Positions 7,590 through 63,531 of a stretch of DNA of 64,000 nucleotides are shown here, piece by piece. The notes beneath the pieces were generated by a model. The model was given only the letters and a program-made list of their open reading frames with translations. It did no database searches and had not been told where the DNA came from. Every line of letters begins with the position of its first letter. Position 1 is the stretch's first letter. A program made the position numbers and the translations under genes. Source of the DNA: Owenia fusiformis (lineage: Eukaryota; Annelida; Polychaeta; Sabellida; Oweniidae); contig CAIIXF020000008.1 in assembly GCA_903813345.2 (NCBI GenBank), forward strand, positions 12,239,278-12,303,277, in the 5' to 3' direction.

Positions 7590-8640
7590 AGCTACTCATC
7601 ATCAGAGTATTAACGAATAGTATTACCATTAGTATTACCAATGATGTCTTAGAGTGTTTCATCATAGTACATGTATTACCATTAGTATTACCAATGATGT
7701 CTTAAAGTGTTTCATCAAAGTATTACCATTGATATTACCATTTGTATTACCAATCATGTCTTAAAGTGTTTCATCAAAGTATTACCATCAGTTTTACCAT
7801 TCATATTACCATTACCATAAGTAATACCAATGATGTCTTATAGTGTTTCATCAAAGTATTACCATTAGTATTTACATTCATATTACCATTACCATAAGTA
7901 ATACCAATGATGTCTTATAGTGCTTCGTCAAAGTAATACCATTAGTATTACCATTCATATTACCATAAGTAATACCAATGATGTCTTATAGTGTTTCATC
8001 AAAGTATTACCATTAGTATTACCATTCATATTACCATTACCATAAGTAATACCAATGATGGCTAAGAGTGTTTCATCAGAGTATTACCATTAGTATTACC
8101 ATTCATATTACCATTACCATAAGTAATACCAATGATGTCTTATAGTGCTTCATCAAAGTATTACCATTAGTATTACCATTCATATTACCATAAGTAATAC
8201 CAATGATGTCTTATAGTGTTTCATCAAAGTATTACCATTAGTATTACCATTCATATTACCATTACCATAAGTAATACCAATGATGGCTAAGAGTGTTTCA
8301 TCAGAGTATTACCATTCATATTACCATTACCATAAGTAATACCAATGATGTCTTATAGTGCTTCATCAAAGTATTACCATTAGTATTACCATTCATATTA
8401 CCATAAGTAATACCAATGATGTCTTATAGTGTTTCATCAAAGTATTACCATTAGTATTACCATTCATATTACCATTACCATAAGTCATACCAATGGTGAC
8501 TAAGAGTGTTTCATCAGAGTATTACCATTAGTATTACCATTACCATAAGTAATACCAATGATGGCTAAGAGTGTTTCATCAGAGTATTACCATTAGTATT
8601 ACCATTACCATAAGTAATACCAATGATGGCTAAAAGTGTT
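7590..8640. repeat. 65-77-bp minisatellite rich in ATTACC
   Basis: Tandem units carry AGTGTTTCATCAAAGTATTA, several ATTACCATT or ATTACCATA blocks, then AAGTAATACCAATGATGTCT. A full unit counts to 77 bp; shorter units lack one or two ATTACC blocks. A second unit type has GATGGCTAAGAGTG in place of GATGTCTTATAGTG and dominates the right end. Confidence 0.9.
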
Positions 8641-9019
8641 TCGTGACTGTATTGGCAACATCCAGGTGAAGCAACTAGTATCCAGCACCTTGAATGATAT
8701 TTACCCCATAGGGAGCTCAGTTCACTATAGCTCCCATTATTGCATAACTTATTAAGTTGCTCATCTGGGCCTCAGCATAATAACATGATATTGTCACTGT
8801 ACTTATAAATGGCGTTGTTATGACGTCAGAGAATCAATAAAAGACATATATATACATGTACATGCGTTACTTGAGACAGTTCATTTAAAGAGTTCACACA
8901 ACAGTACAATAAGGCATAGGTAATATTAGTAATAAATCAAAGATTATGTTAACCATCGAGTATCCTCAAAAGCATGTTTAGATCAAAATCTAATATTCTT
9001 AAACGTTGTTTGTTTTCAG
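8641..9019 (+). other. Sequence upstream of the first RasGRP coding exon, ending in a 3' splice site
   Basis: The stretch ends in a pyrimidine-rich tract and TGTTTTCAG with AG at 9018-9019. This implies that 9020 begins an internal exon and that untranslated leader exons lie to the left, in or beyond this window. I cannot place the promoter. Confidence 0.45.
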
Positions 9020-10507: not shown

Positions 10508-13500
10508 GTGAGTTATGTTTTCTTTTGAATTCATATTGCAGAGTAATTGAATTCTATGTTTAACTTAACAATAAAACCTTTTAATCTGAATGCCACTAGG
10601 AATGGGCAAAAGTGTTTGAATTTGCAAGTGTGTACATTTTGAGGTTTTTTAACATGGAAGTCTATGGCAGATTGAAAAAATGGGACCAAGTGTTTAAATT
10701 GAGAGTTGTCCAGATTAAAGAGGTGTTTTGGATATACAGGTTTTACTGTACATTATTTTTGTAGCTAGACCTAATATTTTTTTATCCTCATTTGGCTAAT
10801 GATGTATACTGAAACACAGACAACTGTTAAATTAATAAATGTACATTTTGAGTTAATTTTTCTTGCTGGCCATATTATATTTTAATATGAAATAGATGAG
10901 GAAGTATAATAATGCTAAAGTTAAACATGTTATTTATTTGGTGTAGCCTAAATTCAATTAGAGGTCTTAGTACAGGGTGTACCAAAAAAACTTCACCCAC
11001 CTGATGAATATATCTTTAACCAATAGAGTTTTATAATAGAAAATTAGCACAATTTAGGTTAGTTCAATAGAAGTATTTTTTCAATATAGATATGAATGTC
11101 GAAAAATATGAAAAAAATATGAATGTCGAAAATAAAACATTTTACTCTGAAGTAAATGAACTTAAGTTATTATTAATATATTACCAGAGTGATGAATTTA
11201 CACAAATATATGTTTTTAAATGTCATGTAATTGCTTACAGTGTTGGTTAAGATTATTAAATCTTTCAAGGAAGAGTCAAGTCCATTCTACCCTTCATAAG
11301 ATCTTTATCACTCTTTAAATGAGTAACAATTCTTTGATCTACCAGATATCTAATCAGGATACATAATCAAAAAAATCATGAAATTACACAATCTGCACCA
11401 TTGAAGTTTCATTTGAGATTATTAAGATCTCATCAACAGTAAAATCATCTGTGATAGTTAGAGGGTAGTGCAGGATTCAGGATATATTCAGGGTAGTGTC
11501 TGTTGATGAGGATTCAGGATATATTCAGGGTAGTGTCTGTTAATGCGGATTCAGGATATATTCAGGGTAGTGTCTGTTGATGTAGATTCAGGATATATTC
11601 AGGGTAGTGTCTGTTGATGAGGATTCAGGATATATTCAGGGTAGTGTCTGTTGATGTAGATTCAGGATATATTCAGGGTAGTGTCTGTTGATGTAGATTC
11701 AGGATATATTCAGGGTAGTGTCTGTTGATGAGGATTCAGGATATATTCAGGGTAGTGTCTGTTGATGTGGATTCAGGATATATTCAGGGTAGTGTCTGTT
11801 GATGTGGATTCAGGATATATCAGAGATCACGATAGTTGAAAAAACTTGTTAGCCATTGTGGCTAAATCTTCCAAAAAAATTTTCGCCAACCAAAATATGA
11901 ATTAGCCATTTTGAAAAACCGTAAAAAAGGGAACATTAAAAATGATGCAATGTCTGATGATGACAGTTTCACTTTCAGTTTCACTTTTTTATAATATTCA
12001 GAAATAAAAAAAACGTCAATTAAAATTGAATGTAAAGCATCTGCCGCGAATGTGATCGGCATTTCACATAGTCTGCACGGTGTAATATCACCAATTCGTT
12101 TACCTTGTGATATCGGAGTCCCAAAATACTTCCAAACTGCCGACTTTTTCGACTTAGATGCCGGCTCGATTTTTCAATAATGCACTCGATAATGCACTCG
12201 ATTTGCGAACGACGATGAAGAAATTTACGAACAAGCATTACCATCTACCTGAAGTCGCGGGTCCGTTAATAACACTTTTCAATGCAAAGAAGCGTAAACT
12301 AGGTACGAGGTCAGTGAAAATATTTAATTTTTCAGAACGAAGTCGGAGGTGTTCCTCGCTATTTATACACGTTTTTATGCATTCTAGGGAAGGAATCTAT
12401 GTACCGATATTAACCCTTTCTGTCCCATGTCCCGAACCGAAGCATCTGGACCGAAATTCGGTCCAATATTGGGAAACCGTGACACCTCTAATTCGCCATA
12501 ACTGCGAAATACCTTTACATATTTTTTGCCACCTCTTTCGAAAATTCGCGATTGGCGAATGGCGAACGTCTACCGTGATCTCTGATATATTCAGGGTAGT
12601 GTCTGTTGATGAGGATTCAGGAAAGATTAAGGTAGTGTCTGTTGATGAGGATTCAGGATAGATTCAGGGTAGTGTCTGTTGATGAGGATTCAGGATAGAT
12701 TCAGGGTAGTGTCTGTTGATGTAGATTCAGGATATATTCAGGGTAGTGTCTGTTGATGTGGATTCAGGATATATTCAGGGTAGTGTCTGTTGATGAGGAT
12801 TCAGGATATATTCAGGGTAGTGTCTGTTGATGAGGATTCAGGATATATTCAGGGTAGTGTCTGTTGATGAGGATTCAGGATATATTCAGGGTAGTGTCTG
12901 TTGATGAGGATTCAGGAAAGATTAAGGTAGTGTCTGTTGATGATGATTCAGGATAGATTCAGGGTAGTGTCTGTTGATGAGGATTCAGGATAGATTCAGG
13001 GTAGTGTCTGTTGATGAGGATTCAGGATATATTCAGGGTAGTGTCTGTTGATGAGGATTCGGGATAGATTCAGGGTAGTGTCTGTTGATGAGGATTCAGG
13101 ATATATTCAGGGTAGTGTCTGTTGATGAGGATTCAGGATATATTCAGGGTAGTGTCTGTTGATGAGGATTCAGGAAAGATTCAGGGTAGTGTCTGTTGAT
13201 GAGGATTCAGGAAAGATTAAGGTAGTGTCTGTTGATGATGATTCAGGATATATTCAGGGTAGTGTCTGTTGATGAGGATTCGGGATAGATTCAGGGTAGT
13301 GTCTGTTGATGAGGATTCAGGAAAGATTCAGGGTAGTGTCTGTTGATGAGGATTCAGGAAAGATTAAGGTAGTGTCTGTTGATGATGATTCAGGATAGAT
13401 TCAGGGTAGTGTCTGTTGATGAGGATTCAGGATAGATTCAGGGTAGTGTCTGTTGATGAGGATTCAGGATATATTCAGGGTAGTGTCTGTTGATGAGGAT

Positions 13501-16500
13501 TTGGGATAGATTCAGGGTAGTGTCTGTTGATGAGGATTCAGGATATATTCAGGGTAGTGTCTGTTGATGAGGATTCAGGATATATTCAGGGTAGTGTCTG
13601 TTGATGAGGATTCAGGAAAGATTCAGGGTAGTGTCTGTTGATGAGGATTCAGGAAAGATTAAGGTAGTGTCTGTTGATGATGATTCAGGATAGATTCAGG
13701 GTAGTGTCTGTTGATGAGGATTCAGGATAGATTCAGGGTAGTGTCTGTTGATGAGGATTCAGGATATATTCAGGGTAGTGTCTGTTGATGAGGATTCGGG
13801 ATAGATTCAGGGTAGTGTCTGTTGATGAGGATTCAAATTATAAGATTCAGCAAGAAGAAGTGTAGTGAACAAGCCATTATAACAAAATATTGTAATTAAA
13901 TGCTTTATATATCCAGAAGGATATCAAGCTGAAAAGTATATTGTATTAAATATATGTAATATTACTGCTGAATAAAAAAGGATAGATTCAGGGTAGTGTC
14001 TCTTTACTCGGCTCTTCCAAAGGTGAACAATGCTTTTGATTGACTGGAATAGAAATGAACCAAGTGAATACTTGATAGCCCTGATGTGTAAGGTAACCAG
14101 AGAAAAGATAACAGTAGAGAATAATTAATTTCATGGTAATCAAATCTGAGGCAATAATGTCATGGAATGATACACTTCGTGATGTGTTAAAAATAAAAAT
14201 GATTAATTGATTTAAAGGAAATAGGATATGCATCGCTGTAATAAATGTATTTCAATGCACACGTACTATATAAAACAATTGACTTCTCCTGGGGTTAATT
14301 GTTACCTTTGAGAGGTCTATAATTATATCGTTAGTCCGAAAGATGAGGATGAAATCTTTGGTGAGTAGAAGATATCATGTAGGGCTAAATCAGTAATTGT
14401 AAAAAAATTGATGTTGCAGTCAATAGTCATAACTATTGACCTCAACTTGATGAGTCAAAACAGAGTATTTTTATCTAGATTGACAATAGAATTAATGATT
14501 TTGATTACCAACACGACACAAGTTGAATACTACATGTAATATAAGGACAAGTGTTTTGAGGATGACCTGAAGAGTATAGTACTATATTTAGTTGAAATCA
14601 AGAAATATTAATAACAAAATAATCAATATTTATATCTGGATGTGATAATTGTTTTCAGCTGGCTTGCTTTCTACATTCTCTGTACAACTGACATTAAATA
14701 AGAAGATCTAATAATATTGAAATTAAAGAAATATTGAAAGCACAAGATGCGAAGCTGTGGTACCATTGGAAAGCTAACCATAAAAAATTAATTTAAACAA
14801 TTTTATTGTATACTAAAACTAGTCCAGGATTATGTACTACTTTTTGGTATTATTCATATGTACAAGCCTATTGTCAAGTGAACCTGTTAGAAAAAGGAAT
14901 TGTTAGAATTATGAAATAAATCACACATCAGATCTTGAACACAAAACATTTGGCAATACTATAACATTAGTCAATTTAGGTTTAGAATTGAGGGAGAGCC
15001 TTTGCTCATGTACTTTGTCCATATTATTTGTACGCTTAAACCTCAGTTATTCACAGTTTATTGCATTTTTTGCTTTTTCTCACTATAGCAAAGAACCAAT
15101 ATTTTCTACACTGAATATTTAATTCTCATATTTGATGCTTGGTAGGTGGTCCATAATTATTGGTTGTTTATCTTAATAATGAAAACATGTAGGGGTTGCT
15201 ATAACACCCCTGGACCAGAAATTCCTAGATTTGATCACATTAGTAAAGTTCGTTGGTCTCAATTTGAAAAATGAAAAAGAGCATCTCAAATAAGATGGCT
15301 GGTTGTCTCATATGTAAGGGCCAACTATAAAGGCATAGATCAGCCTCTAACAGACATTTCTTTCCAATACGAAAAAAAGCCGATCGATAGAATCACATGA
15401 CATAAGCTCTTGCGTTGTGACTTGTATATTGAGCAATGAAGGTGCAGAACTCTGAGGCTTATTTGTGATGTATTGATACTGGGATAGTTTAATTACTCTA
15501 TTGGAATTTTAGTGGGATCTTATAGTTTTCTCCTTTTTCTTTTTCACTTGAACTATACTGTAATTATATTATTTTTATAGGATCATTTCTGATTTTCTTG
15601 ATTTATCAGATAACATCCCCAGAGTCAGTATCTTACAGAATTGGATATTTGGCTGATTATGTTCGTAGTGATTCAGGGGTTCAGAATCAAAAGTCATGAG
15701 CCTTAGTAAATGCAATGGTCCAGGACTAAATAATCTTTCAATATAGAGCAGAGATTCATACATGAAATAAAGAATAAATGTAATAAGCTAGATATTTTCA
15801 TGGTCCAAGATCTCAGGATAGATACTTTCATCATCCAGGGCCAAAGAATTCCAAGTTCAGCAAAATAGTCTCTTGTTGAAGGGAAGCATTCTTTTGGTGA
15901 GAGGATTGAATAATCATAAGATTCCAGCAATCATAGAGAATTATCCAGGGGTAGAGATAGCCTAAGAGTACCAATTGATCCAGGGTAAGGTAATGCAATT
16001 ATTCAGGGCTAAGATCATACACTTATTCACTGCTGGGGTACCATGATCCAGGGCTAAAGATGAAACCAAGATGAAACATTAGAGAACTGCTCATAATGGC
16101 TTGCAATAATAGTTACAGTTGTTGGATTTACACTAGAGCCCTAAGACGTCTTGGCTAAAACGTTTTAGCGTTAAAACGTTTTACAAATGTAATGTAAATC
16201 CAGATTTTCTCAAGAGCTCTTGGCTAAGAGCGCTTAGCTAAAGCGTTTTAGGACCCTAGTCATAGCCAAGACGTTTTAGCGTTAAAATGTTTTACAAGCG
16301 AGTGTAAATTCATCGGTTTTAGCTAAGAGCTCTTAGCCCATTTTTTTGCGTTGCGCCGAACGAAACATTTGAAACTTTCTATTTACATATGTCACATGGT
16401 CTTTTCTTTTGTCTTATCCCTTGTTCCCAATATCATCCTAAAATTATTGAGAAGAACTTATTTGCCTGGCGATCTATCATAATCCTAATTTATGCATGAA

Positions 16501-19500: not shown

Positions 19501-22500
19501 GAAAAAATAAATCTTGCAGATTTGTTGAATTTTCTTGCAGAAATGGGCTACTCCCCCCTCTGTTCATTTTTTCTGACAAGTGGGCGTGTCTCTGTATTGC
19601 AGGTTATGTCATAAAGACAAAAGGAGTTTAAGGGGCTTGATGCAAACCAATTGTAATAACATGCTTTTTTTCTCAAGAATGGTTTAAATCATTTTTATGG
19701 TGTCTATAATTATGCAGATCTATGAGAAGGAATCTAATCTGAATATGTCACACGCTGACCTATTTGTAATTACAATGTATGAAATCACGTTCATTCTCTT
19801 ACAAATGATTTCCCCAAAGGATATCGTGATGCACTTAACTGTACATTTTTATATGTTATATCATTATTTAAACTTTCAGGTTAATTGTTACGAATCAGAG
19901 AAAACAGATAATCCAGGAATAATTTTTGTTTTAACTGATTATTGTGGATTATGATGCTTGCAGATGTGTACCTATTGTAATGTATTTCTAACCCCTAGAT
20001 CTGGAAAAGCTTTTAACGTATGAATGTCAGGGAAATTCTGAATTCCTCAAAATAAATTGCTAGAATATTATGCTAACCCCATTCAACTTCAATCTGGAAA
20101 TATATATGAACAAATGATGCCATCAATCATGAATACCAGGAAAATTCAATATTCATCATAAATTTTCATTTCAGTATTTGCATGATATAAACATAATACA
20201 GTACTATAAATGTTGATGGCCTCGATATAATAGCACCATTGACTCCCTATGTATTATTAATGTGCTTTTTACAGTCATTTGAAAATATATTTTATATGAC
20301 TCAATGAGCTTGATTATGCTAGATAGTGACATTATTCTTATAGAAATAATGATTTTTGGGTTATATACTTCTTTAGTAATGTGATAATAGACAGTAGCAT
20401 GAGCAAAATGGTGGTGAATTTGTATTTACTTTTTAAACAGTAAAAATGACATAAATATTGAACATTTATATTTCTTTACAGATTTTTAAAACAATTAAAC
20501 TAAATTACGTGCAATTTGAATACATGTCTATTGAATTTACTTTTAAAATGATAGAAAACAAGGGGCGTAGCAGGATAAAAAATAACACTAGGCAAATGTT
20601 AACATAGGCGAGGCAAATGTACATACAGATGAGGTAAATGTTAATACAGATGAGGCAAATGTTAACATAGGTGAAGCAAATGTTAATACAGATGAGGCAA
20701 ATGTTAATACAGATGAGGTAAATGTTAATACAGATGAGGCAAATGTTAATACAGATGGGGCAAATGTTAACATAGGTGAAGCAAATGTTAATACAGATGA
20801 GGCAAATGTTAATACAGATGAGGTAAATGTTAATACAGATGAGGCAAATGCTAAGACAGGCGAGGCAAATTTTAATACAGATGAGGTAAATGTTAATACA
20901 GATGAGGCAAATGTTAACATAGGTGAAGCAAATTTAAATACAGATGAGACAAATGTTAATTAATACAGATGAGACATGTTAATACATATGAGGCAAATGT
21001 TAATACAGATGAGGGAAATTTAAGCTATATATATCTACCATTTGATTTCATTTCCACAGTTATGGTTGAATAAACGTTAGAATAAATATATTTCTTCAAA
21101 ATTCTGGTGAGGCATTTGCTTCGTTTGCCTCATGCCTACTTGGAAAGAGTACTTTATCAAAATCAAAAAGGGCCAATTTCAGGGATACATCTCAGAAAAA
21201 GGGTCAATTTATTGCAATGGTAATTTAATTGTTGCAATTGTGATGAAAAGTGACCATGCTTATTGAAACTAGTAAGACACACAAACAAATATTTTGTCAC
21301 CTCCACTTGTTATATATTACAAAAATTATGCTTCTTCCTTTACTTAGGCTGCATGGGGAAAAATAAAAAATGAAAATCACAATGGTATTGTCTGAATATA
21401 AAAAGTTAACATAAATTTTGCTATAAATAGAATTCACGGCCCCTTCATGCCCTATTGCCCTTGTTTATTGGTTAAATCAAATATTGATTCTAAACATCTT
21501 TCAACAGATACAACATTTTTATCAACAAATTATTGTTGAGATTTTTTATTGGAGGAATACCAATATTGTTCTCTTGGTTTGCATATTCCCCATCCAGTAC
21601 TCAATTGTAAGTTATTTTGCATTCAAATCATAAGCAAATGGGAAGATCAACATGTACAATATAGTATAGTATATAGCTATTAATTTGGGCCATCCAGGAG
21701 ACAGTGTTGAATAAAAGCAATGTAATATAAAGCCATTTTGTGCAGATTCTGCAGAAAACTAGGTCATATCATAATCATATCTAAAATCTAGGTAAAATCT
21801 CTTCCCAGGGTTTGCAACTCCCAGGGAAATCTGTACTGGAGTATGTCATATTATACAAATAGTGACTGCCATTGAGGGCAATAGTGTAAATTATTTCCCC
21901 GAGGGAATATCCTCTAAAGTGTACTATTCCCGAAGCCGCAGGCTGAGGGAATAGTACATTTTAGAGGATATTCCCAAGGGGAAATCATTTACACTATTGC
22001 TCGAAATTAGGCAGTCACTATTTGTTTTATTATATACCCAATATGGTTATGTTTAATTAGTTTAAGAAGATGGATCGTAGCTTCAAGGATTGGTTGGTCA
22101 AGAACATTTAAAACAAATAGCTTAATAGATTTAAACTACACAAAGTGTATTCCAAATAATAAAGTAACATCAAACTTCAGAAATTGTACAAAGTTACAAA
22201 CTGCACAAAGAACTACTTTTGCACAATATTAACTGCAGTGTGCAATTTGAAAAGTTCATGATTGTTTAACTACTTTTGCACAATATTAACTGTGCAATTT
22301 GAAAAGTTCATGATTGTTTTTTTGACACTTTGTCCAATGTTTGTTTCTTGAGATGATGTTTGGACAGATAGCTCGGGACTCTTTGGTCCATTGGCTTTGG
22401 CAATAGTGTTGTTATAGTTATTCATAAATGCCAAATCATCATAACTTTCTGGTATCATTGGATAGTTTTCCCAGTCATTATTCATAGAAATTGGAGCTTG

Positions 22501-25500
22501 ATCCACATCTACGTCATATTGATGAGTAGACACTGTAGCAGATGCACATGGTTTTTGATGTGACACAATATTGTTATTATCCTGGCTCTCTGTGACTTTA
22601 CTCGACAATCCCAAAGGAACTGAAGTTTGATGTGTAGACAAAGTAGCAGATGCACATGGTTTTGGTACAATATGATTATCCTCGTTTCCAGTAACTATGC
22701 TTGACAAACTCAGAGACATTTTTCTTTTCTTGTCTTCAGTTACATGAGAAGCGTAATTCTTTATGCTAGATTCAGAGCGATGGCCTGATACGCACATTAT
22801 GTGGCGACTCTCGAAGCCCATAGCATCAAGATTAGTGATTGTTGTTGCCCGAAGGCAGTGATTAGTATATTCCTGTGAAAGGCCATAGTCCTTAGATATT
22901 GTTTTCATCATGGTTCCTATAGTGTTTTTTCCAATGGGTGATTCGTAAAACCAGCGCTTGGTTTTTGCAGCTTCATTTGAACTCAGTATTTTAGGCCTCT
23001 GAAAGAAGTATTCGCAGTCAACATTACGAACACTTTCATATTGCTGGAATGACTGAACAGGGCATAGGGGGTGTGAACTGCCATCTTGACCTGGAAAAAA
23101 AATAAAACAGATCAAATAAAAAACTCGGCTTAGTATATGCATGTCTGATTATTTTACAACATACATGTACAAATGTAAGTATTCATGATGTTACATGGCT
23201 GTCAAAAGAATTATTCATATCTGTATTTTAGTATTTCACACAACTTACACTTGATTTCATACATTCGTGCTCCCTTTTCTTCATCAGTTTCTCCCCTGCT
23301 GTTTTTAGTTAGGCGATTACCATTGAATGTGATGTATTTTAAGCCAACACTGTCCTGGCACAATTTGAAGTCATTCGTTGTAAAGTCCCTTAGATTTTCT
23401 CTGCCTCTGTTACACATATGCATCATCAAATCCAAGAAAACTTTATCAAGCAAACCCTTAGGTGTAGAAATGTCTAAAGATCCATACAGTTTCCTCAGGT
23501 CATTTCCGGTGATAGGCTCCTTATGCTTCACGTCTGCTTTGCCTTCCTGCTTTAGCTGTTTGATGCATGCTTCAAATACTTTGGAGCATTTGTGAAAAGT
23601 AGGGTCCGATACAATGTCAATATCAACTACCTGCTTTATGTGCTTTCTCAAACCATATCTGATTGTTTGCATACTTTTCTTGCTGAATTTAGTTTTGTCC
23701 TGTTTTCTTATTGATGGCCAGAAGAGGGCCAAGAAATTTGGTAATTCCTCAGTATCTTGTATGATATCGCCGATGTCAACGTTTTTCTCTCTGCAATACT
23801 GATCCAACAGGTTCACTGATCCCTTAACTACATTTTTTGTACTTTTAGAATCAACTGATGACAACAAGTTGTCTAAATCCTCCGCATTTGTGTGTGTAAA
23901 TCTTTCCGTCTGCGTTTCCTTCATTTTTACTTTTTTTGAATGCGCAGAAAGATGCGCAAACGTCTCCAGGGGAAATAGACATCGCAATCGTGACGTCAGC
24001 GGGCAATAGTTCAAATGTATATTCCCGCTTCTTACATTTGAGGGAATATACACTTTCGAAGGGAAATAGTAAATCTATTTCGGAACACGTGACTAGGTAT
24101 TGACCAATCAGGATTAGTGTTACATATTGGGTATATAATAATGATGCATATTATATAATAAATCACTATTTGATAATGCCTCTTCCAGGAGTCTGCAATT
24201 GTGACTCAATATTACCTTAGAGATACTTAATGTTTCTGTGTCACTCACATGGTACTTTAAAATCAACAATAGAACAGTTTTTATGTCAGCTCCACAAGTA
24301 GTGAAATATATATATTGTCTCCCAACTTTTTTTATGGCAGTGGTTGGTGTTTGGGTGTTTGTGTTCAGTTGCTGGTGTTCGGCAGTTGGCATTTGGCATC
24401 AATATCTAATGGCAGGTAGTGGCATTGCATGTTAATGCCTTGTTTTTAGTTTTTCATTATTTTTGTGTATTTTTCTAGCCCATGTATACCCATATATTGT
24501 ACAATATGTGTTGCTATAGACAGTGTTTACAAATGCATATCTACTTACATTCAGTCTAAGGAGAGCCGAACCTGTTTCTCTGGATAAGATTTCTAAGATA
24601 ATACCTCTAGACCATACAGTGAAGCATGGTGAATCTAAATAACCACCTAAAAACAAACAATATGCTGGATTTTATACAGGGTGGGCCAAAAGCGTTTAAA
24701 GATGTATGTCATATGAAATATGTTAAACCATGCCATGTATTATGTGTCACTTTAAAAATTAACACCGGGGATGTCAGGAGCGACTGATAATCGAAAAATG
24801 AAAATTTCCAAATTTCCCTCCTTATTAAAGTCACTGCTGCACTTAATACGCTGAAATAGATTGAACATTGATTAAAAATATAAAATGTTATCAAGAAAAC
24901 ACCAGATTTTAGATTCATCTTGTGATTTGTATTTGCTATTAGAATTGAGATCAGTTTGTATGTAAAAAGAGTGTGGTGTTTTTGATATGTCATGCACAAT
25001 ATGATAATCATATATGCATGGAATATCCTACATTACCATAATAATATACCATTGTAAATAGATAACATTCTTATCAGTCTTCTTATTCCATAATAATTGG
25101 CATAATAATGGGAAAGAGAATAATAAGTTATCATGTCAGATATTTGTTATTCAAGAAATGAAATTATCAGTCCATTAATACGTCATCTAATTCCAATCTA
25201 TTCCAGGTTGTACAAATTATTGTACATAAAACATAATGGCTACTACACTACACTACACTACACTACAATACATTTATACGTACATACATATATGTGTTTT
25301 ATTGTTTATTTACAGAAGGCCACCAGAGCCGTGTAGCTCGCACTGACCATCGTAAGAGCTATGACAGTTGCCGTTTATCTTACTTAGGGGCCATGGGGGA
25401 TGAGAAGCCGGTATTGCCAGGGGTGACAGTCAAAGCAGCCCCCACCCATCAGCTTGCCCAACTGAGCTTAGACTGCTTTGGTAAGTGAATTTGAGCATTT

Positions 25501-28500
25501 CTAATTTTCCATATTTACATGTACTTATTTGTTCATGAAATTCTAAAGAGCCTCGGAAGGTCTGGTGAAAAAGTTTGAGATGTTGCATCGCTAAGCTAGA
25601 TTATACAGATCAAAAATCATTTTAGTAAATGATAGAATATTGCCTCGATTGCTAATATGCAATTGTATTGTGTAAAAGCTCTACAAAAAGTTTGACATGC
25701 TTTAAAAAAGCTCATTCATTTGCAACTTGCAAGATTAGGAAAGAAGAACCTGAGATGACATTGTTCATCACGATAGATAAAAAAGAAAAGATGAAATCAG
25801 CGAAGATATTCTCAAGATTTTTACATGGGGGGTTTTCAATCAATAGACCCCTGGTTGGGAAAGGATCGTCACACGCTGTAGGTCAACTTCTCTCTCCAAA
25901 AAAAGAAAAGATGATATGAGAGTGGGAGGGATGCACAATATATACAATAGAAGATCAATCTAAGTCTGTTACACTTAACATCAAGGCTTGCTAAATGAAG
26001 AGAGAAGTTGACCTACAGCGTGTGACGATCCTTTCCCAACCAGGGGTCTATTGATTGAAAACCCCCCATGTAAAAATCTCGAGAATATCTTCGCTGATTT
26101 CATCAAAATATTGATGCACAGAGAATGAGATATGCAGATTCCACCTGTTAGCATCCTGCTTTTGATGTTTATACATAACATACTATAAAATGAAAATGTC
26201 TGCATTTGTTACTTCTTATCAAAAAGAGCTAATAAAATCCTAGATGTTACTGTGATTTTTTTGTGGGGAGGTGGCATTGGCATTTATATTTCATGATAAC
26301 GAGTTAAGATTGACTTAGTGCAGAATGGAGAATTAATCTATATTAAGTGAATAGATATTGATTAATGCAATAGAATCACAAAATAAACAGTTATGTGCGA
26401 TAAGACAATAGAACATGAAGCCCTGGATCTACTTTCAAATGTTCATTAGGATAATGTACACGCCATAATTCCCATCCAGCAAGAGACCTCGATTAACCAC
26501 AGGGTTCCTATTGCACTGACATCATTGACTGTCTGGTTCACTTGTGACGACAGAAGTAACTTGACTTCAGACTGACGTGGTGAATTGACATCATTATTGG
26601 TTGTATGACATCAAATCTGCAGTTCAAAGATGCCAGGTCTTTGGTTATATCAAATATATAGAAGATATCCTATGATTAGTGACTGTTCTGTTTTTATCCC
26701 CCAAATAACAAGGGACATGGGCCTTCCAATATATCTATTCAATTGGCCTTGTATCGGAGGTTATGCCATTTCCTATACCTTTCCAGTATGAATCCCTTGT
26801 TTAGCCAAAACATTTTAATGTTAAAAACCACTTTTTGAAATTTTGAAATTTCACATATCTCACTTTGATAACATTGAGTAAGACTACAATATAAGCCAAA
26901 GTGGTTTAAACTTTATATGGGGACTTTAAATGAATACAGGATACAGTTTGGGGGTATAGTAGTGTGATAACCCCCTCAAACAGATTTCACTTGGTTCCAG
27001 AATAAAGTGAACATTAAATAGAGAGATTCGTGGATCACATATATACATAATAGCTATTAAAGCTGTAATGTGTAATGCATTATAAGAAAACAAGGCATGC
27101 GGCAATACCATGTTACATTTTATACATTTCTTTTACAAAACAAATGATAGAAACAAACCATGCAATACTCTCACATAATCAGACAGTGATGTCTTTTTTT
27201 AGAAAAAGCTTTGATGTCAAGTGATCTTTTAAGTAAATGAGAGAGTTTAGATGCCCTTGGAATATTTACTGTTTTGCAGAGTCGCAGCTATTTCATGCAG
27301 CCAGACTTCAGTTGTATTTTGTGCATATACAGGGTGATCCAGAAGTAACGTCAAAGACATTGTAATTTCAAAAGTATTCATCAGATCTTCATGAAATTTG
27401 GAATACATGTACCCACAACATTTCTGAGTTACCATCTCAAAGATTGGAATTCAATCATTTCATTGGTTGAAATTATGGTTGCTATAGTAACCCGATATCG
27501 CGTAACCCGGGGCAAATTGAAGAGAAACCATAACGTTTTTGTGAATTTCTCTAATTTAAAAAGTCAGTAACATTTGAAAATGTTCATTGTTTGTTTTCTA
27601 TGATTTTTATATTTGTTGCCATGGTAACAAATATGTAATAGTTGTGATGTCACAATAGGCATTCATAAAAAGCTTTCAATTTCTTTGAATTGCTTCCATC
27701 ATCCATGACAAATACTAACATGACCAAGGACACTAACCCACCCAATTCAAGATGGCGCCAAGTCAGAGTAAAATAGAGCAAAGAACAAACATTAAGTTCT
27801 GTGTAAAGTTGGGGAAAGGTGTAAAAGAGACTATAAGACAGATAAAGAAGGCATATGGTAAAGCTGCCATTGCTGAGAGAAACATTTACAGGTGGTTTAA
27901 CAAGTATTCCAGTGGATATGATGAAGTGGTAGACAAGCAGCGAGGAGGCAGGCCAGTGTCGTCATTCGATGATCAAACCATCAAAGCAATTGAAGCTGAT
28001 GTTATGGACAATAGGCAAATTTCTATCAGAGAATTGGCTGAAAAACACGATCTGAGCTATGGGACTGTGCAACGGATACTGACAAAGAACTGTCTGTTAA
28101 AGAAGGTGTCTGCTAAATGGGTGCCGCATGACTTGACACAGGAGCAGAAAGACCGGCGTGTTAAGGCTTCAAGGGACTTTCTTGCAAAATATCGGAGAGA
28201 TGGAGATGACTTTCTTAACAAGATCATTACGAGTGACGAATCATTGCTATCATTCTACATCCCAGAGACCACGCAACAAAGTTCATCGTGGAAACATGAC
28301 AACTCCCCAACACCAACCAAGCCTAAAATAGTACCAGGAATTCCACAAAAGAAACAAATGGTTGTGACATTCTTTGACATTAGAGGAATGGTGTTAACCC
28401 ATTTTGTTCCCATTGGCCAGAGAATTAATGCCATTTACATTGCAAAGGTAAGATATCATTTGTTCTAATAATACATCATACTGTGAATTTTATTTTTAAA

Positions 28501-31500
28501 TTAAAGTATTTAAATGTTGTTCACTGTCAATATAATTATAACTCCATGGCCATGATTCAAATCCAAATCCAATCAATGAAACAACTGGTTTAACAACCAT
28601 TAAACATTTGTTTTTCAGGTTCTGAAGCGTGATCTTCAACGTTCCCTGAGGAAAAAGCGTCCTGGACATCTGCAGCAGTTTATCTTGCATTGGGACAATG
28701 CCCCTACGCACACTGCAATCCTGACCAGCAACACAGTCCAAACACTTGGATTTCAACAACTTGAACATGCCCCTTATTCACCTGATCTTGCCCCCAGTGA
28801 CTTTTATTTGTATGGGGAACTAAAAAGAAACCTTAGTGGAAATAATTTTCAATCCTGTGAGGAATTGAAAAATGCCATAGTACTAGCCCTACAAGGAATG
28901 AGTTCTAATGGATTTAATTCTGTGTTCAAGGAATGGGTATCCAGACATGAGAAATGTGTTGCAAATGGTGGCAATTATGTAGAATGAACTATTATTAGTA
29001 ACTGTGCAATAGTATGATTTATATTGTTGTGAAATAAAATGTTGAGGATATAACAATTTCAGATCTTGTTGATATTTTGAGATTACGCATTACACGTTAA
29101 GTAATTTGCCCCGGGTTACGCGATATCGGGTTACTATAGCAACCATAATTTCAACCAATGAAATGATTGAATTCCAATCTTTGAGATGGTAACTCAGAAA
29201 TGTTGTGGGTACATGTATACCAAATTTCATGAAGATCTGATGAATACTTTTGAAATTACAACATCTTTGACGTTACTTCTGGATCACCCTGTAATTGTTG
29301 TACAGTAAAACTGTTTAAGTGAAACACCTCTATTGTAAACCTCTCTTGAGGTCAACTGGCAAAATTGTATACTGATAATGTAAACCTTGAAAGTACTGTT
29401 GACTGAGACCTGAGGTAATGTATAGTTTTAACATTGAAACAATTGGAAAATTCCTCAAAAGAACAGGCATTTTTGGTTAACAACTCGAGACCTCTGTTTA
29501 TGCTTTTCTTATCTGATCTCTTTTAATACATTTTTTCAAAATATAAATATGTCTGGCAATTTATTTAGACGGAGGGTAAAGTGGACATACGTTTTGTTGG
29601 ATTATAATTTACCAAGTCCTCTCGAGGCTAAGACTAAAAAGTTTTTATCATGATGATTTTTATGTCACCACCACCACAAATTGCAGGTGGTGACATTTTG
29701 CATGTTATGCCTTGTCTTTAAAAATCATGATTTTATATGAGTCCCCGATGTTGAAAAATAATCCAGGATCATTTCTCTTCGGTTAACCAAGTCTTTAACT
29801 CATCATTTATACAATATCGTGTTTCATCCTCATTGTGAGCCAAATCACCTAAGTAGAAAATTAGATTGTAAGTGGCTATAATCCTATACTGCTGCCTGAG
29901 AGCTGCATGGTTTTTCATAAAGATAATATTACCCCAATCTTGTCATTATGGGATGATACCCTGGATGAACTACATAATGTATTAGGCTAGCTCAGGTACT
30001 AGATCTTTTGTTTCATATATTTGCAGCAAACTGTAAAAACTTTGAAGTTAAACACATCTGTTTGTGGAACATTTTGCATGTGGAACAGTAGAACAGTGTG
30101 TGTAGTTTTCCTGTAGTTTTTTTCTGTAGTTCTGGGTATTCAAGGGTTTAAGTCTTTCATTGTATTCTAAGTGAATATTAAAAACGCCTTTTGTTTAGTT
30201 GTGATAGTATAAACCCTGTACTAAGATGTCTAATAATTGACGAGGATGCGTCTACATGTATACCCTGCGTGCAGAGTCTAGTTAAACTACAAGACGAAAC
30301 TCTCTTTTAAGAAGTGAAGTCAAACGAATGCAAAGGGTACTACATGTACTGGTTGTTTTGCGTAATAGTATTTATTTCCCATGTTTATTCTTGAATAATT
30401 TAGCGACTTGAAGAGCAGAATTGGCCATGAACAAAATAGTATAATCCTAACAAATGAAGATAGAGGGACACACCACAATTTGTAACCAGAAAATAAAAAC
30501 TATTATTTTAATGGATTTGGTAAACATCACAACTCTAAAATGTGTGACCATACCACCCACACTATAATTATACTTTCCAGGAATCAGTCTATTCTCTCCT
30601 AGAAATGGCAATGTGAAATAGATGCTAATTAAATTGCTCCCTATTGTTCTATTATGTACTATCAGCTGTCAAGGTAACATCCAACTTGTCTATATTGCTT
30701 AAAGGTGCAGACCAAAAGCATATATCAGGTCTTTTTCCTGGAACAGGGAGTTTTTTATGTCACTACCAAGAAGTAGGTCTTTTATGGAATTTTGGATGAC
30801 ACTTCTGGCCCCATGTTTGCATTTGATGTTGACCAAAAAATGTACAAAAAGAACATACATACAGTTTTAGTTTGTTGTTGTTATTGGAAGCAGTTGAAGG
30901 GGATCCAGGGCCCCATGTACATGTATGTTACAGTTTTAATATCATTTTGTAATAATTGATAGGCTTCAGTTAGATTTTGACAGCGATGTACAGTTCTATT
31001 CTAACAGCACTGTTTTGAACATTATTGTAGTACAGTATTGTTTTTAAATAATAAAATAATGTTAATTATGCGTTTATATAGATCAATTGTTTAATTAGAT
31101 TAATAACCCATATATAATGTAAACATAAACTCTATTAATAAAATACCAAGAACTATTTATGGGTAGTCTGTGCAAACAATCCAATAATTAATACATATGT
31201 CGGTTAAAAAAATCTAATTCCTGGAATTGCTCTATGGTAATATTGATTGATTATTGTCAGCTGTTTTAACCTAATTGTATTATCCATATAATAAAAGCCA
31301 TTGATTTCTGATTGATCAATGATCATTCAAAGCACTTTTGTTTTAGAAATATTATATAGGTAATTACGTTCCTGTATGTGATAAGTTATGTCACCCCCAC
31401 TTGTGGTGACATATTGTTATGATCTCCAATTTTTTTGTGGACAGTGTTTGGCAGTTGGTGTTCAGCGTCTGGTGGTTGGTGTTTTCATTCAGTGTCTGTA

Positions 31501-43500: not shown

Positions 43501-46500
43501 AGCTAGTGGAGACGTTTCATTGGTATATTTAAGAGGGTAGGACAATGTTGATCACTATTTCAAAGGGTACTTGATTGCTGGATTATCACACAGGTTTTAC
43601 AGTATATAGTCACGATCCTACGATAACCTGGACGTATCACATCATAATATCCTGTTTGATTATTATCAGAGCATAAAATGTCTGTTTTCCTAAAATAACA
43701 GGATCTTGATATTACCCTTGAAAAAATCCTCAAGGAGCAAGTTTATTCCTCGGTACATTAGTTCTGCATCTTGGTTTCAGAGTCATATTTTCTTATTGTA
43801 TAGTTTATCAATTGTTGCATATCATCTGTCTCGAGATATAGGTGATCTGTCATTATGCAATGTCAATGTTAACATGCTCTTTTTGTAAGGTTAATGTAAG
43901 GGTACTCTGTGAGACCTGGATATTGAGAAGCTGACTTGGACTTGGCATGTGTCTGACCCAGGATTCTATGGGAAACCCTGAATTTCTTTCCAAGAAATAT
44001 CAAATAATTGTATGAAATAAAAAATACATTTTTCAAAAATGAATTTGTTGTTATTACACGTTTTATGACAAATTATACAAATATGTCAGCAGAACAAATA
44101 ACAGAGAACAGTGAATTATTTTAGAATTGGATAATATTTTTCAGGCCATCATATGATTGGATAAGAGCAGTTTCAGTGCGGAATCCAATGAATCTGAGAA
44201 GGTCTCAAAAAGTGACGTTAGAGTTCAATCATCTTCAGCCCAATGACTTAGCAGAGCAATTGACATTCCTAGAATATAAAGCCCTAAGACGAATCACAGT
44301 AAGTTTTGTGTGACATCATTCCTAGAATATAAAGCCCCAAGACGAATCACAGGAAGTTTTATGTGACATTATTCCTAGAATATAAAGCCCTAAGACAATT
44401 CACAGTAAGTTTTATGTGACATTATCCCTAGAATATAAAGCCTTGAGACAATCCACAGTAAGTGTTATGTGACATTATTCCTAGAATATAAAGCCTTGAG
44501 AAAAGTCACAGTAAGTTTTATGTGACATTATTCCTAGAATATAAAGCCCTAAGCCGAATCAAAGTAAGTTTTATGTGACATTATTCCTAGAATATAAAGC
44601 CCTAAGACAATTCACAGTAAGTTTTATGTGACACCATTCCTAGAATTTAAAGCTATAAGACAATTCACAGTAAGTTTTATGTGACATTATTCCTCGAATA
44701 TAAAGCCATAAGATGAATCACTGTAAGTTTTATGTGACATCATTCCTAGAATATATGCCCTAAGACAATTCACAGTAAGTCTTATGTGACAATTGTCCAA
44801 GAATATAAAGCCCTAAGATGAATCATAGTAAGTTTTATGTGACATTATTCTTAGAATATAAAGCCATAAGATGAATCACAGTATGTTTCATGTGACATTA
44901 TTTCTAGAAAATAAAGCCTTTAGACGAATCACAGTAAATTTTATGTGACATTATTCCTATAATATAAAGCCCTAAGACAATTCACAGTATAAGTTGTATG
45001 TGACATCATTCCTAGAATATAAAGCCCTAAGACAATTCACAGTAAGTTTTATGTGACATGATTCCTAGAATATAAAGCCCTAAGACAATTCACAGTAAGT
45101 TTTATGTGACATTATTCCTTGAATATAAAGCCCTAAGATGAATCACAGTAAGTTTTATGTGACATTATTCCTAGAATATCAAGCCCTTAGACAATTCACA
45201 GTAAGTTTTATGTGACATTATTCCTCAAATATAAAGCCCTAAGATGAATCACAGTAAGTTTTATGTGACATCATTCCTAGAATATATGCCCTAAGACAAT
45301 TCACACTAAGTTTTATGTGACATTATTCCAAGAATATAAAGCCCTAAGATGAATCATAGTAAGTTTTATGTGACATTATTCTTAGAATACAAAGCCATCA
45401 GACGAATCACAGTAAGTTTTATGTGACATTATTTCTAGAATATAAAGCCATAAGACAAATCACAGTAAGTTTTATGTGACATTATTCCAATAATATAAAG
45501 CTCTAAGGCAAATCATCCTAAGTTTATGCGACATTATTCTAGAATATAAAGCCCTAAGACAATTCACAATAAGTTTATGTGGCATTATTCCTAGAATCAC
45601 CCTGCTTGATCCAAAAATTGTGATGATTTAATACCAATGATTCAAGTCTTGATACATCATACATGTAAATACTGTATAAGGTGAACATAAGGTCCCTGGA
45701 TTCTGTTCAGACAAATTCTATTGTTTTTCAGTTCACCGACTTTAAGAACTATGCAGTCCGTGTATCACTGAAGGATAATCCAAAGTTGGAGCGTTCCATA
45801 TCCCTGTTCAATGGTCTCTCTCAGTGGATACAATGTATGGTCCTTAGTAAGACTACCCCTCAACAGAGGGCTGATATCATTGTCAAGTTTATCAATGTGG
45901 CAAAGGTAAGCATATTTTTTTGTATTTGTTTGTATTTAATTTATTAAATTGGTGCAGAGTATAACCCTGCCCTATCTGATACCAAAAACACCAAGATTCT
46001 GAGAAATAATTAAGAATAACCTATGACCATCGATAGACTTTTGCGATTCTTAAAAGCGCCAAAGCGATAAACCATTTCAATGTAATTATGATTTTCAGTT
46101 TTGCCAAAAATGAAATTTACATGTGATAAAATAAAAAAGTTGGCAAAAGAGAATCTGGGTAAATCAGAAGTACTAAACCACTCAGTTATGTTTCAGAGAT
46201 TACGTGAACTGCAGAATTTCAATACAATGATGGCAGTGGTTGGGGGCCTGACACACAGCGCTCTGGCCAGATTGGCTAAAACCATGGCATGTTTACCTTC
46301 AGATGCTCAAAAGGTAGGAATGCAATTATTTTATCAAACACTTCATAACAACCATGGAAAAGATGTCCCCTGGCATAGATTTAACCTAATGTATTTTAGG
46401 GAAGGCATAAACTTACAAAATAGACACTACCATTCTTAACCATCGATATCTGTAGGGAAAGAGTGATGGATTGTTAATTTACTTCACCAGATTTTGGCAG

Positions 46501-60574: not shown

Positions 60575-63531
60575 CTATAATGTAATGTAATGTGGTGAAA
60601 ATGCAACTGTAGTTTTCAATCTCAAAGCATATTGAGAGAATCAGCTGAGAACCTGTGATGTACGTCTTAAAGCAGTCAAAATGTAGTCATATCAAAAAGT
60701 CATATGAAACATATTGTACCTTGCTCCAGGAAGGGACACCCTGTACTTAATCTGTAATGCATCTAACCTCCCCAGCTCCTTATAACCCAATGTATGTGCA
60801 AACCTCTCCCAGTCAGCACGTCTTGAATCGTCTCTCAGCCTTAATTTTTTTGCCAAACGCTTCCCTTTGTACATCTTCAAATCTTCTGTAAGATATTCCC
60901 AGTCTGCCTTGTGCCAGGCCCTCTCTGCAAGGGCTAAGATTCTTGGGAATATCATATAGTCTAACTGCTCCCCTGTACGAACAGTTTCACTCCATAGTTC
61001 ACCTTCCATACCTTCAATAATTTAGAGATATGTTGTTAATCAATTATATTTTTGCCATATATAAACCAAAAGGTAAACCTAAAAATGACCATAGATTTCA
61101 CTAATCTTTAACAAGAGGGATTATTACTACATTAAAATCCCGGTTTAAAATGTCGTTTTCTAAACATAGTACTAAGTAGTGTATATATTTGAATTTTCGA
61201 TTATGCAAAATTACACAAGCATTTCTTTGTTGGTCAATTAAGTTAACTAATCTAAAATAGTTACCTGACTAATCTAAAACAATAAAAGTTAACAATAACA
61301 TAATATTATAATAAATTAATTGAAAGATGTAGCAGCGTTTGGTAATGTCAGCGTCTGTTTCAATTTGCATGTTAATGCCTTGTTACCCTTTATTATCAAA
61401 TTTTAACTTGAAGCTATTATATTGATAATAATATTTCACATGACTTTCAGAGAATGACCTAGAAATAGATTTTGAAACAAATGAAGTATCTACTTCTAAT
61501 ATATCCATATGATCTCCGAACATGAAAAATGAAGGCTGGACCAATTTTTCTATATGAAATAATCCACTTATATTTATTGAGAATGGTGTGTCACTATACT
61601 TCAGTTAAGAATTAATGGTTACTCGATATAGTTGGTATATGTTGATATATTTTGATAAAAATAAAGGTTTGCTGAAATCTTTGGGGCACTAACGCCTCAG
61701 TCATATTTGTTCTCCGAAGGCCGTACGGCTGTAGCTTCACAAAATCGATATAGAAAATCTACATTATACTGCTTATCCTTATATTTTATGCTGTATTTTT
61801 CTCTCGAATTTGGGAAGTTACGACCACCGTGCGGTTACCATAGATCAAATGTGACAGAAGCATAGTTATCTTGACCTAACTATTATTACAAATGCTGAGC
61901 CTTTTTGACAAGAAAGTTAGAAAGTTATAACTTTATGAGAAAGGTATGAGAGTATGAGAATGGACCTTATCAGCAACCAGAGATCAAAGAAGTACTCTAG
62001 TTTGTCACATTTATGTTATTTATTAGTTTAGCCTATATGCTGTACCTGAATGGACAGAACCAGTCACATTTCGATTTTTACATCCTAAACCTTTCAAAAG
62101 CCTATTCAATATTTGATACATATAGTGTCATAGCTCATTGTAAAGTTCTTCTAGATATGGCATGGTACAGGCGACATTTGTTGGAATAATAATATTTGCT
62201 TTTAATTTTGTATTACTGATTCTAGAAGACCTACCAACTATATTCTCAGGCTTCTCGAGTGGTAGACACCATTCTGTAGATCTTGCACACTCGGTTTCCT
62301 TATTTAGTACCTCTCCATTCAGTGCAAAATCTATGTTGTCATAGAGACTATCAGGCATGAAACCAAATGTTTTCTCTGTATCAATGAAACGTGTAGCCCA
62401 ATACAAACCACGCTCTTCTGGATCGGGCTCATATGGGTGGTCAAAATATGTGTGTGTTGCCTGGGTCATGACTGTCTGTGAAAGAATCGCAATGTTATTA
62501 TACTGGGTTTGCATTTGTACTTTAAATAACACAGATTTGCATTGTTTTGTGTTTTGCTACAGAAGACAAAGGCAGGAAAGCCATACGGATATTGCTAATT
62601 ATAAGCAAAAATAAGTTACACATTTTCATTACAGGATAATTGAACTACGATTTACACAAATGTAATTATAAATTGTGGATACCTTATAACCTGCATTGGC
62701 AAGTTTGTACGCTCGGTTCCCAACACCCCATTCCCAAATATTCTGCCAAGCATAGGCATACACATCTCCGTTGTTTTTTAGCTGTGTGATATCATAGGCA
62801 ACATCAGTATCATTGACCTTCCCAAGTACTCCATCCTCCCATGCACCAAGGTCATAGCCCTCCATGATACTAGCTGTTCTTTTCACGAAGTACTCCATCA
62901 GGTTATCATGGCTTGTTACTTCATCTGACTCTATCAACTTCTCACAGGCGGTTGAGTTAAGCCAGGCACCTTCAGCTACCTGATCTCCGCCAAATATGAA
63001 TGTTTTCAGAGGAGCAATACCTTCATGGAGCCTAACTATCTCAGTGAAGACTTTTTCCATGAACGCATATGTTGAGTTCAAGCAAGGGTTTACACTATTA
63101 TCAGTAAAATATTGGACCGAAAGATACTTGGAAGGATCATCTGGTTCACTTAGAAGATACTGATCTGCTGGACTCCCTTGAATGGGATTAGCTTCAAGCC
63201 GTTTTCTTCTTTGTTCCATGGCTATGATAGCAGCATGACAGTGGCCAGGAACATCAATCTCTGGAAGGATCTCTATATGCCTGTCTGTTGCATACTGCAG
63301 AATTTCTCTACAATGGGTCAGGAATACCTAAAGTGAATTTCTGAAACAATATGTTTAAGTATCCCTCGGTCAAATTTTGCATATTCTATAATATTTTTGA
63401 AAGGATTAGAGTCACCTGTAGTCCTGAGCAGTATAGAAGCCATTGACAGACTTAAATGAGGTCGGACCAGAGCCAAGTTGAGAAAGAATACAATGCTCCT
63501 CTGCAAGGTCATGACATCTGAACCCGCCAAT
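60443..63531 (-). CDS. Chitobiase-type GH20 beta-N-acetylhexosaminidase, partial (five exons), Gln in place of the catalytic Glu
   Basis: GH20 enzymes remove terminal N-acetylglucosamine from chitin fragments or glycans by substrate-assisted catalysis. Exons: 63531-63416, 63307-62683, 62475-62235, 61011-60720, 60574-60443; all junctions keep frame (about 468 codons). Family landmarks in order: Arg-Cys-His-Asp and Gln-Leu-Gly-Ser-Gly-Pro; Tyr-Arg-Glu-Ile-Leu-Gln-Tyr-Ala...Pro-Glu-Ile-Asp-Val-Pro-Gly-His; Phe-Gly-Gly-Asp-Gln; Ala-Trp-Gln-Asn-Ile-Trp-Glu-Trp-Gly; Tyr-Phe-Asp-His-Pro-Tyr-Glu-Pro-Asp-Pro-Glu-Glu-Arg-Gly; Leu-Trp-Ser-Glu-Thr-Val-Arg-Thr; and a C-terminal domain with Tyr-Ser-Ser-Asp-Gly...Leu-Arg-Thr. 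The catalytic acid, normally the Glu after Asp, is Gln (CAG at 62982-62980), one base from GAG. The N-terminal domains lie beyond 64000 and the final exon is not found. Confidence 0.92.
60720..61011 (-). CDS. Hexosaminidase exon d
   Basis: Acceptor ATTGAAG before 61011, donor CAAGGTACAA after 60720. It encodes Gly-Met-Glu-Gly-Glu-Leu-Trp-Ser-Glu-Thr-Val-Arg-Thr and Phe-Pro-Arg-Ile-Leu-Ala-Leu-Ala-Glu-Arg-Ala-Trp-His, the last strand and helix of the barrel. Confidence 0.93.
61331..61382 (+). repeat. Copy 10 of oriented repeat family (3' end only)
   Basis: GGTAATGTCAGCGTCTGTTT then CAATTTGCATGTTAATGCCT-TG. It lies in a hexosaminidase intron, antisense to that gene but in the same + orientation as all other copies. 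Confidence 0.65.
62235..62475 (-). CDS. Hexosaminidase exon c
   Basis: Acceptor CTTTCACAG before 62475, donor GTTGGTAGGT with GT at 62234. It encodes Thr-Val-Met-Thr-Gln-Ala-Thr-His-Thr-Tyr-Phe-Asp-His-Pro-Tyr-Glu, holding conserved substrate-binding Tyr and Asp, ending Pro-Glu-Asn-Ile-Val. Confidence 0.92.
62683..63307 (-). CDS. Hexosaminidase exon b (active-site region)
   Basis: Acceptor CATTGTAG before 63307, donor AAGGTATCC after 62683. 625 nt covering Pro-Glu-Ile-Asp-Val-Pro-Gly-His, the altered Gly-Gly-Asp-Gln motif, and the Trp-rich substrate loop, ending Ala-Gly-Tyr-Lys. Confidence 0.93.
63416..63531 (-). CDS. Hexosaminidase exon a
   Basis: Acceptor GATATTTAG before 63531, donor CAGGTGACT after 63416. 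It encodes Ile-Gly-Gly-Phe-Arg-Cys-His-Asp through Gln-Asp-Tyr, a segment of the TIM barrel typical of bacterial-chitobiase-like GH20. Confidence 0.88.

Follow-up and report, generated by a model that had tools for sequence, protein, structure and literature searches.

A minisatellite across a RasGRP exon-intron boundary and similar splice-site arrays in the genome of Owenia fusiformis

Background

A minisatellite with multiple splice donors is said to have been described by Turri in 1995 in human IFI6 (6-16). The accessible text of another report describes downstream units of the minisatellite in human IFI6 as being used as donors (PMC4526556). In amphioxus, repeats known as mirages are reported from Adh3, the globin genes BflGb6 and BflGb9, PGBD5, and TnC (PMC3087553, PMC3902484). 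Mirages are minisatellite-like repeats that run across exon-intron boundaries, and in the available part of the report they are found not to disturb splicing (PMC3087553). Tandem duplication of segments containing AG/GT is a further way in which splice-site sequences are multiplied, and it leads to intron gain in the work of Rogers, Venkatesh, Zhuo, and Gao and Lynch, as cited in the accessible text of PMC3087553. For earthworm metallothionein, minisatellites in introns are reported together with duplications of exons that are missing from transcripts, and the part of that report available to us does not describe a boundary-spanning array (PMC12783039). Among the top results of a literature search with poor coverage of subscription journals, no report of a boundary array in a protostome was found.

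Here we describe an array of this kind in a RasGRP gene and similar arrays elsewhere in the same genome. The RasGRP array is most probably a boundary-derived minisatellite like the mirages, a by-product of minisatellite growth that is tolerated but not needed.

Results and discussion

The RasGRP exon and its array

The features of the RasGRP locus are given below. Positions are those of the window, the whole stretch of 64,000 nucleotides (64 kb) that was analysed.

44145-44298, forward strand: RasGRP exon of 154 nt, in frame from 44146, with a TTTTTCAG acceptor upstream
44265-45597, forward strand: minisatellite with a 53-bp unit; in the unit alignment, a unit across the exon boundary is followed by 24 full units in the intron and then by a short stub
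44299-44304, forward strand: authentic 5' splice site ACA/GTAAGT, phase 0, predicted to be used from protein homology
44311-44313, forward strand: in-frame TGA, which would be met by transcripts spliced at a downstream donor or retaining the intron
44352-44357, forward strand: first spare donor position, GGAAGT (GT lost), in the unit adjoining the exon
44405-45465, forward strand: region bounded by the outermost spare units with an intact GT; the GT-less unit at 45306 lies inside it
44689-45483, forward strand: higher-order pattern with an offset of 531 bp, a putative sign of block duplication
45732-45905, forward strand: next RasGRP exon, encoding RasGEF domain sequence, after a TTTTTCAG acceptor

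The translation of 44146-44298 matches chains of RasGRP2 (E 2.1e-9) and RasGRP1 (E 1.2e-8) in the PDB, and no Pfam family is matched by this exon. The match of 45732-45905 to RasGRP1 is stronger (E 2.4e-18), and Pfam RasGEF is matched there too. The first donor of the array would therefore be the one used, as judged from this homology. Read-through from the exon gives RRITVSFV followed by a stop; the fifth codon past the true donor is the TGA, which lies 5' of every spare donor.

As in mirages, the array spans the exon-intron boundary. Its first 34 nt belong to the exon, and the rest takes up most of the following intron, in agreement with the preliminary description, which derived the array from this boundary. 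Tandem Repeats Finder gives a period of 53, 25.2 copies, 86% matches, and a score of 1927. Twenty of the 24 intronic units retain GT, 17 of them with the full GTAAGT, and units that bear splice signals are another mark of mirages. It had been stated that most units keep a donor, which holds, and that there are about 24 spare donors, which fits the number of full intronic units but not the number with GT, the first of them being dead (GG). GT is also lost in the units at 45306, 45518, and 45569. Both the true donor and most intronic units (22 of 24) have A at position -1, where G is usual; of the two exceptions, one has T and the other, a dead unit, has C.

The spare donors had been placed at 44299 plus multiples of 53. 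This spacing is not kept, because the donor register is displaced from 44775 onward by short deletions and an insertion of 2 bp. It had also been proposed that any spare donor would shift the frame and bring in a TGA. The TGA at 44311 does precede all of them, but the frame shift fails for five spare GT donors whose offsets are divisible by 3 (159, 318, 582, 849, and 1113). U1 duplex energy per donor was tried as a measure of donor strength and dropped, since the dead GG unit scored best.

Origin and turnover of the array

The second Arg codon of the exon copy is CGA, which fits RRI in RasGRP1. Among the intronic copies, the G of this codon is replaced by A in 14 of 24 and retained in ten, which lie dispersed along the array. 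The fit of CGA to RRI together with A in 14 units agrees with the exon as the ancestor and the constrained copy, as originally supposed. Exclusion of the boundary copy from turnover is a further feature of mirages. In RasGRP there is a single site at which the exon and most array units disagree, and there only 14 of the 24 units depart from the exon; differences that set the exon apart from every copy in the array were seen only at other loci (L003, L004, L006, and L030).

The unit junction (GACAT, then TTCCTAG) is similar to a short match in the RasGRP exon, and this match could have been the seed of the first duplication. Units 44689-44952 and 45220-45483 have a 1-bp deletion and several other variants in common. 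The 531-bp pattern may be taken as the mark of a block duplication via unequal exchange or slippage. When the 498-Mb genome was searched with the DNA of 44258-44420, 11 matches were found among the best candidates scored, all of them within the RasGRP array.

Long minisatellites are hard to assemble, and the array is taken from a single assembly, so that an artefact of assembly has to be considered. The units differ from one another, however, with shared variants and the 531-bp block pattern, and the same form occurs at several other loci. An artefact is for these reasons very improbable.

Several other minisatellites lie in the window (592-1388, 3035-3912, 7599-8642, 11473-11820, 12584-13835, and 20590-21023), some of them very homogeneous (74-bp unit, 94% matches). 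The window also contains two adjoining long frames on the reverse strand at 22270-24074, of which 22270-23145 matches Phage_integrase (tyrosine recombinase); these frames are perhaps a mobile element. Pieces of a Mos1/mariner-type transposase lie at 27737-28984 on the forward strand, the second piece being under the curated cut-off. A fragment of Glycosyl hydrolase family 20 at 62632-63327 on the reverse strand belongs to a neighbouring gene on the strand opposite to RasGRP.

Donor ladders elsewhere in the genome

Ladders, that is, three consecutive exact copies of a donor word, were searched for in the 498-Mb genome, with the reversed word as a control. There are 594 AGGTAAGT ladders against 328 for the reversed word and 515 AGGTGAGT ladders against 133, although these counts are not independent, as ladder matches cluster within arrays. 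The AGGTRAGT form with longer spacing gives 1146 against 584 for the reversed word; it finds shorter-unit arrays again at double spacing. A ladder of GTAAGT alone is uninformative (8242 against 7806 for the reversed word) because the genome is full of minisatellites. Three GTAAGT arrays were nevertheless picked by eye. Only L009 has a possible exon, which is without a Pfam match, and no exon was seen in L010 and L011.

Eight AGGTAAGT arrays, which are every distinct one among the matches listed for the first contigs, were sampled together with six AGGTGAGT arrays. The AGGTGAGT sample omits the opposite strand of L003 and another block built from the unit of L028. An open frame with an upstream pyrimidine-rich acceptor runs up to the first donor, as judged by eye, in seven of the eight and in five of the six, respectively. 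No exon was seen in L005 and L029, two of the 14 sampled donor arrays. Six of the 12 exons picked by eye (6 of the 14 arrays) match Pfam above the curated cut-off, and the families are Muted/BLOC1S5, NIF phosphatase, the Cys-loop receptor ligand domain, UDP-glucose dehydrogenase, MRPL52, and Rieske. No Pfam family reaches the cut-off for the other six; for L031 the sole match is below it. In a search of the PDB, the exon of L008 matched mL52, that of L026 gave only weak coiled-coil-like matches, and those of L002 and of the acceptor array L014 gave none. As the eight arrays come from about 100 of the 594 matches, a rough extrapolation suggests some tens of arrays per word.

In L006, a 1-nt insertion that would shift the frame of the exon is present in all 16 of the 16 intronic copies. 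In L004, a missense change is present in five of five. Such changes, common to all intronic copies at several loci, imply that the exonic part of the copies drifts freely and that the exon is not overwritten.

Two loci have arrays that are open in frame. L001 (C1:441600-444200) has what looks by eye like the end of a Tetraspanin-like exon, without a Pfam match, followed by an in-frame 54-bp donor ladder; a 120-bp duplication at this locus spans the acceptor side. L027 (C1:5411200-5413200) has a 33-bp donor-containing repeat that is in frame and open (VSPNAHSFDTE) and is ambiguous, since a coding repeat and a donor ladder are indistinguishable from the DNA.

Acceptor arrays and control arrays

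The mirror image of a donor ladder is a ladder of acceptors. The word TTTTGCAG gives 79 ladders against 41 for the control, corresponding to about 22 distinct arrays among the matches listed. Fourteen of these were sampled. Five of the 14 look linked to an exon at their last copy (L012, L013, L014, L017, and L018), a fraction that is biased because the arrays were taken out of order and partly for exon-like letters. L023 ends at an exon, and the remaining eight of the 14 have no exon link. Pfam matches of the acceptor arrays are below the cut-off (2OG-FeII in L012, 0.0015; laminin G in L017, 0.037).

One exon has an array on each side:

C2:33703100-33704900: locus L007, with a UGDH-like exon at 708-845 of the locus

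Upstream of this exon is a 130-bp acceptor-side array, in which the acceptor occurs five times or more ahead of the true one. Downstream is a 45-bp donor-side array, whose first spare unit has lost GT. At the exon-linked loci the site that fits the protein is the one in contact with the exon, namely the opening donor where the array multiplies donors and the final acceptor where it multiplies acceptors. Exon definition would imply just this, with the exon-adjacent site winning at both donor and acceptor ladders.

As a control, 12 arrays of the reversed word TGAATGGA were sampled. Three of them (L032, L034, and L042) were dropped because the array starts at the edge of the locus, leaving nine usable. 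No frame enters the array in L036 and L040, and 13 frames from the other seven arrays were searched. A Pfam exon was found in two of the nine, L039 and L041. In L039 (C2:24841450-24842500), a 52-bp array begins about 25 nt past the end of an SLC6 exon (E 3.8e-18). In L041 (C2:29632600-29633400), a reading frame on the opposite strand leads from a 24-bp array into a serpin exon (E 1.5e-12). A link to exons may thus be partly general to minisatellites in this genome. The link to exons seems closer for arrays of donor words (supported by Pfam in 6 of 14 and by inspection in 12 of 14) than for the controls, although the tests are not identical, the exons of the former having been picked by eye first.

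Are the spare donors under selection?

Conservation of the donor was compared in RasGRP and in ten further arrays, the ten having been selected because they contain exact donor words. Of the 209 intronic copies in these 11 arrays, 193 retain GT and 152 are identical to the true donor over the whole 9-mer. Mismatches in the donor hexamer amount to 28 of 1254 cells (2.2%), against 391 of 9966 (3.9%) elsewhere in the unit (Wilcoxon p 0.0098). The hexamer is below the rest of the unit in nine of the 11 arrays, and L031 shows the opposite. When all 6-base windows of the unit are ranked, however, the donor is unremarkable, with a mean mid-rank of 0.44 (z -0.68). In the RasGRP unit alone the donor hexamer has a mid-rank of 0.37 and no special conservation. 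Selection has not eroded the donor hexamers, but the paired test and the window-rank test disagree on whether they are preserved. Note that the reduced mismatch is not predicted by a purely neutral view.

In ten control-word arrays, mismatches in the chosen word are 9.3% against 7.2% elsewhere, the word being lower in three arrays, higher in four, and without mismatches in three. As the control words show no drop, the choice of a word in advance is not enough to produce one, although the control-word arrays are more diverged than the donor arrays.

These figures bear on the proposal that the units bind U1 rather than serve in splicing. A ladder near the start of the intron would hold U1 on the nascent RNA, where it would suppress premature polyadenylation or raise expression. 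The many GT and 9-mers kept, the reduced mismatch of the hexamer, and the lack of a drop in control words are what such binding would leave. The unremarkable window rank speaks against it, as do the choice of ten of the 11 arrays for exact donors in three consecutive copies and the greater divergence and mixed directions of the control arrays. On balance, a U1 function is quite improbable.

The spare donors might instead be used at a low, regulated rate, giving transcripts with a premature stop and lowering RasGRP output in a way that depends on array length. The preserved GT and GTAAGT of most units fit such unproductive splicing, any use would meet the TGA at 44311, and two downstream repeat units serve as donors in human IFI6, according to the accessible text (PMC4526556). 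The first spare donor of RasGRP is dead, however, and its donor hexamer is mid-way among windows; these two results also count against U1 sequestration and tuned output as suggested in the preliminary description. Moreover, splicing is reported as normal in the available account of amphioxus mirages (PMC3087553), and the presence of similar structures on unrelated genes is contrary to a device specific to RasGRP. We regard regulated use as unlikely.

It had been thought, too, that near-identical donors downstream of the authentic one could buffer its loss. In RasGRP this is contradicted, as every replacement donor lies behind the in-frame TGA. A stop is found ahead of the spare donors in nine of the 11 arrays. 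The exceptions are L001, where the 54-bp unit is open across four units, and L030, where the first spare donor, 40 nt from the true one, is itself overlapped by the stop. The probability of buffering is next to nil.

A probable by-product of minisatellite growth

For growth of a boundary-derived minisatellite, the following course of events may be proposed. A 53-bp segment of about 34 exonic and 19 intronic bases would have been duplicated in tandem, and the duplicates would have turned intronic since splicing kept to the donor in contact with the true exon. Growth and turnover would have followed through slippage or unequal exchange, including duplication of the 531-bp block. The exon-adjacent site may be chosen via exon definition, in which the nearest donor is recognised together with the exon body and the true 3' splice site, through early co-transcriptional commitment to that site, or through both. 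Stray use of a spare donor would be cleared by nonsense-mediated decay. The anatomy of the array, the identity of the exon, the premature stop, the recurrence in the genome, and the fixed exon-array differences at several other loci are observed; we infer the donor choice, exon definition, the decay of errors, and the order of events.

In classic experiments with duplicated sites, the intron-proximal donor is reportedly favoured when the sites are equal, which would be the wrong choice for the RasGRP array. The accessible text of a study with reporters states that intronic elements between competing 5' sites often suppress the intron-proximal site (PMC1877881). Such elements are a possible help for the choice of the exon-adjacent donor.

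The spliceosome has one donor to pick among about 20 near-identical ones, and the protein needs the one farthest from the 3' end of the intron. Donor ladders, the mirror-image acceptor ladders, and the UGDH-like exon with both are ready competitions between exon-adjacent and intron-proximal sites and would be useful for testing exon definition. They are a natural test of splice-site choice and not a proven regulatory device. The arrays also show that an intron can be lengthened by a minisatellite without harm to the protein. A wider proposal is that boundary-seeded donor and acceptor ladders form a genome-wide class in a non-cephalochordate animal, with the extra donors as U1 docking sites under weak selection and the splice decided by exon definition alone. 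This is a long shot. If it is true, UGDH-like exons with two ladders would serve as experiments set up by nature, in which exon definition and intron definition can be told apart in living cells.

Comparison with known systems

Protostomes are separated from amphioxus, as far as is known, by the presence of innexin and the absence of GFP. Innexin has 34 matches in the 498-Mb genome, exon by exon, several of them full length. The GFP family has no match in this genome, a search without a positive control. The COX1 and mollusc haemocyanin families are also without a match there, and GFP and haemocyanin are unmatched in the control genomes too. The innexin and GFP results point, weakly, to a protostome rather than amphioxus. 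The host of the RasGRP array is probably outside the cephalochordates, and with these arrays the phenomenon known as mirages in amphioxus probably reaches a further phylum.

As far as the accessible text on mirages goes, the RasGRP array resembles them in being a tandem repeat that spans an exon-intron boundary (mirages occur at 5' or 3' boundaries), in having splice signals in many units, and in a unit length of the same order (10-72 bp in Adh3). Turnover inside the cluster with boundary units excluded from homogenisation is described there for amphioxus; the RasGRP array has its 531-bp block pattern, and exclusion of its boundary copy may be a further likeness. The RasGRP array differs in its 24 copies, against six and three in two haplotypes of BflGb6 in the same text. 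Amphioxus mirages are described with their splicing and haplotype length, whereas the RasGRP array is known from the DNA of one assembly.

IFI6, in the part of the report available, is alike in that units of a minisatellite carry splice donors. It differs in that two downstream units are used and give isoforms, whereas downstream use in RasGRP would yield a stop. Intron gain from AG/GT segments, as outlined in the accessible text, likewise starts from tandem duplication of a splice-site sequence, but in RasGRP an existing intron is lengthened and no new one arises. The RasGRP array is a known phenomenon, that of the mirages and IFI6, which recurs in the genome of Owenia fusiformis.
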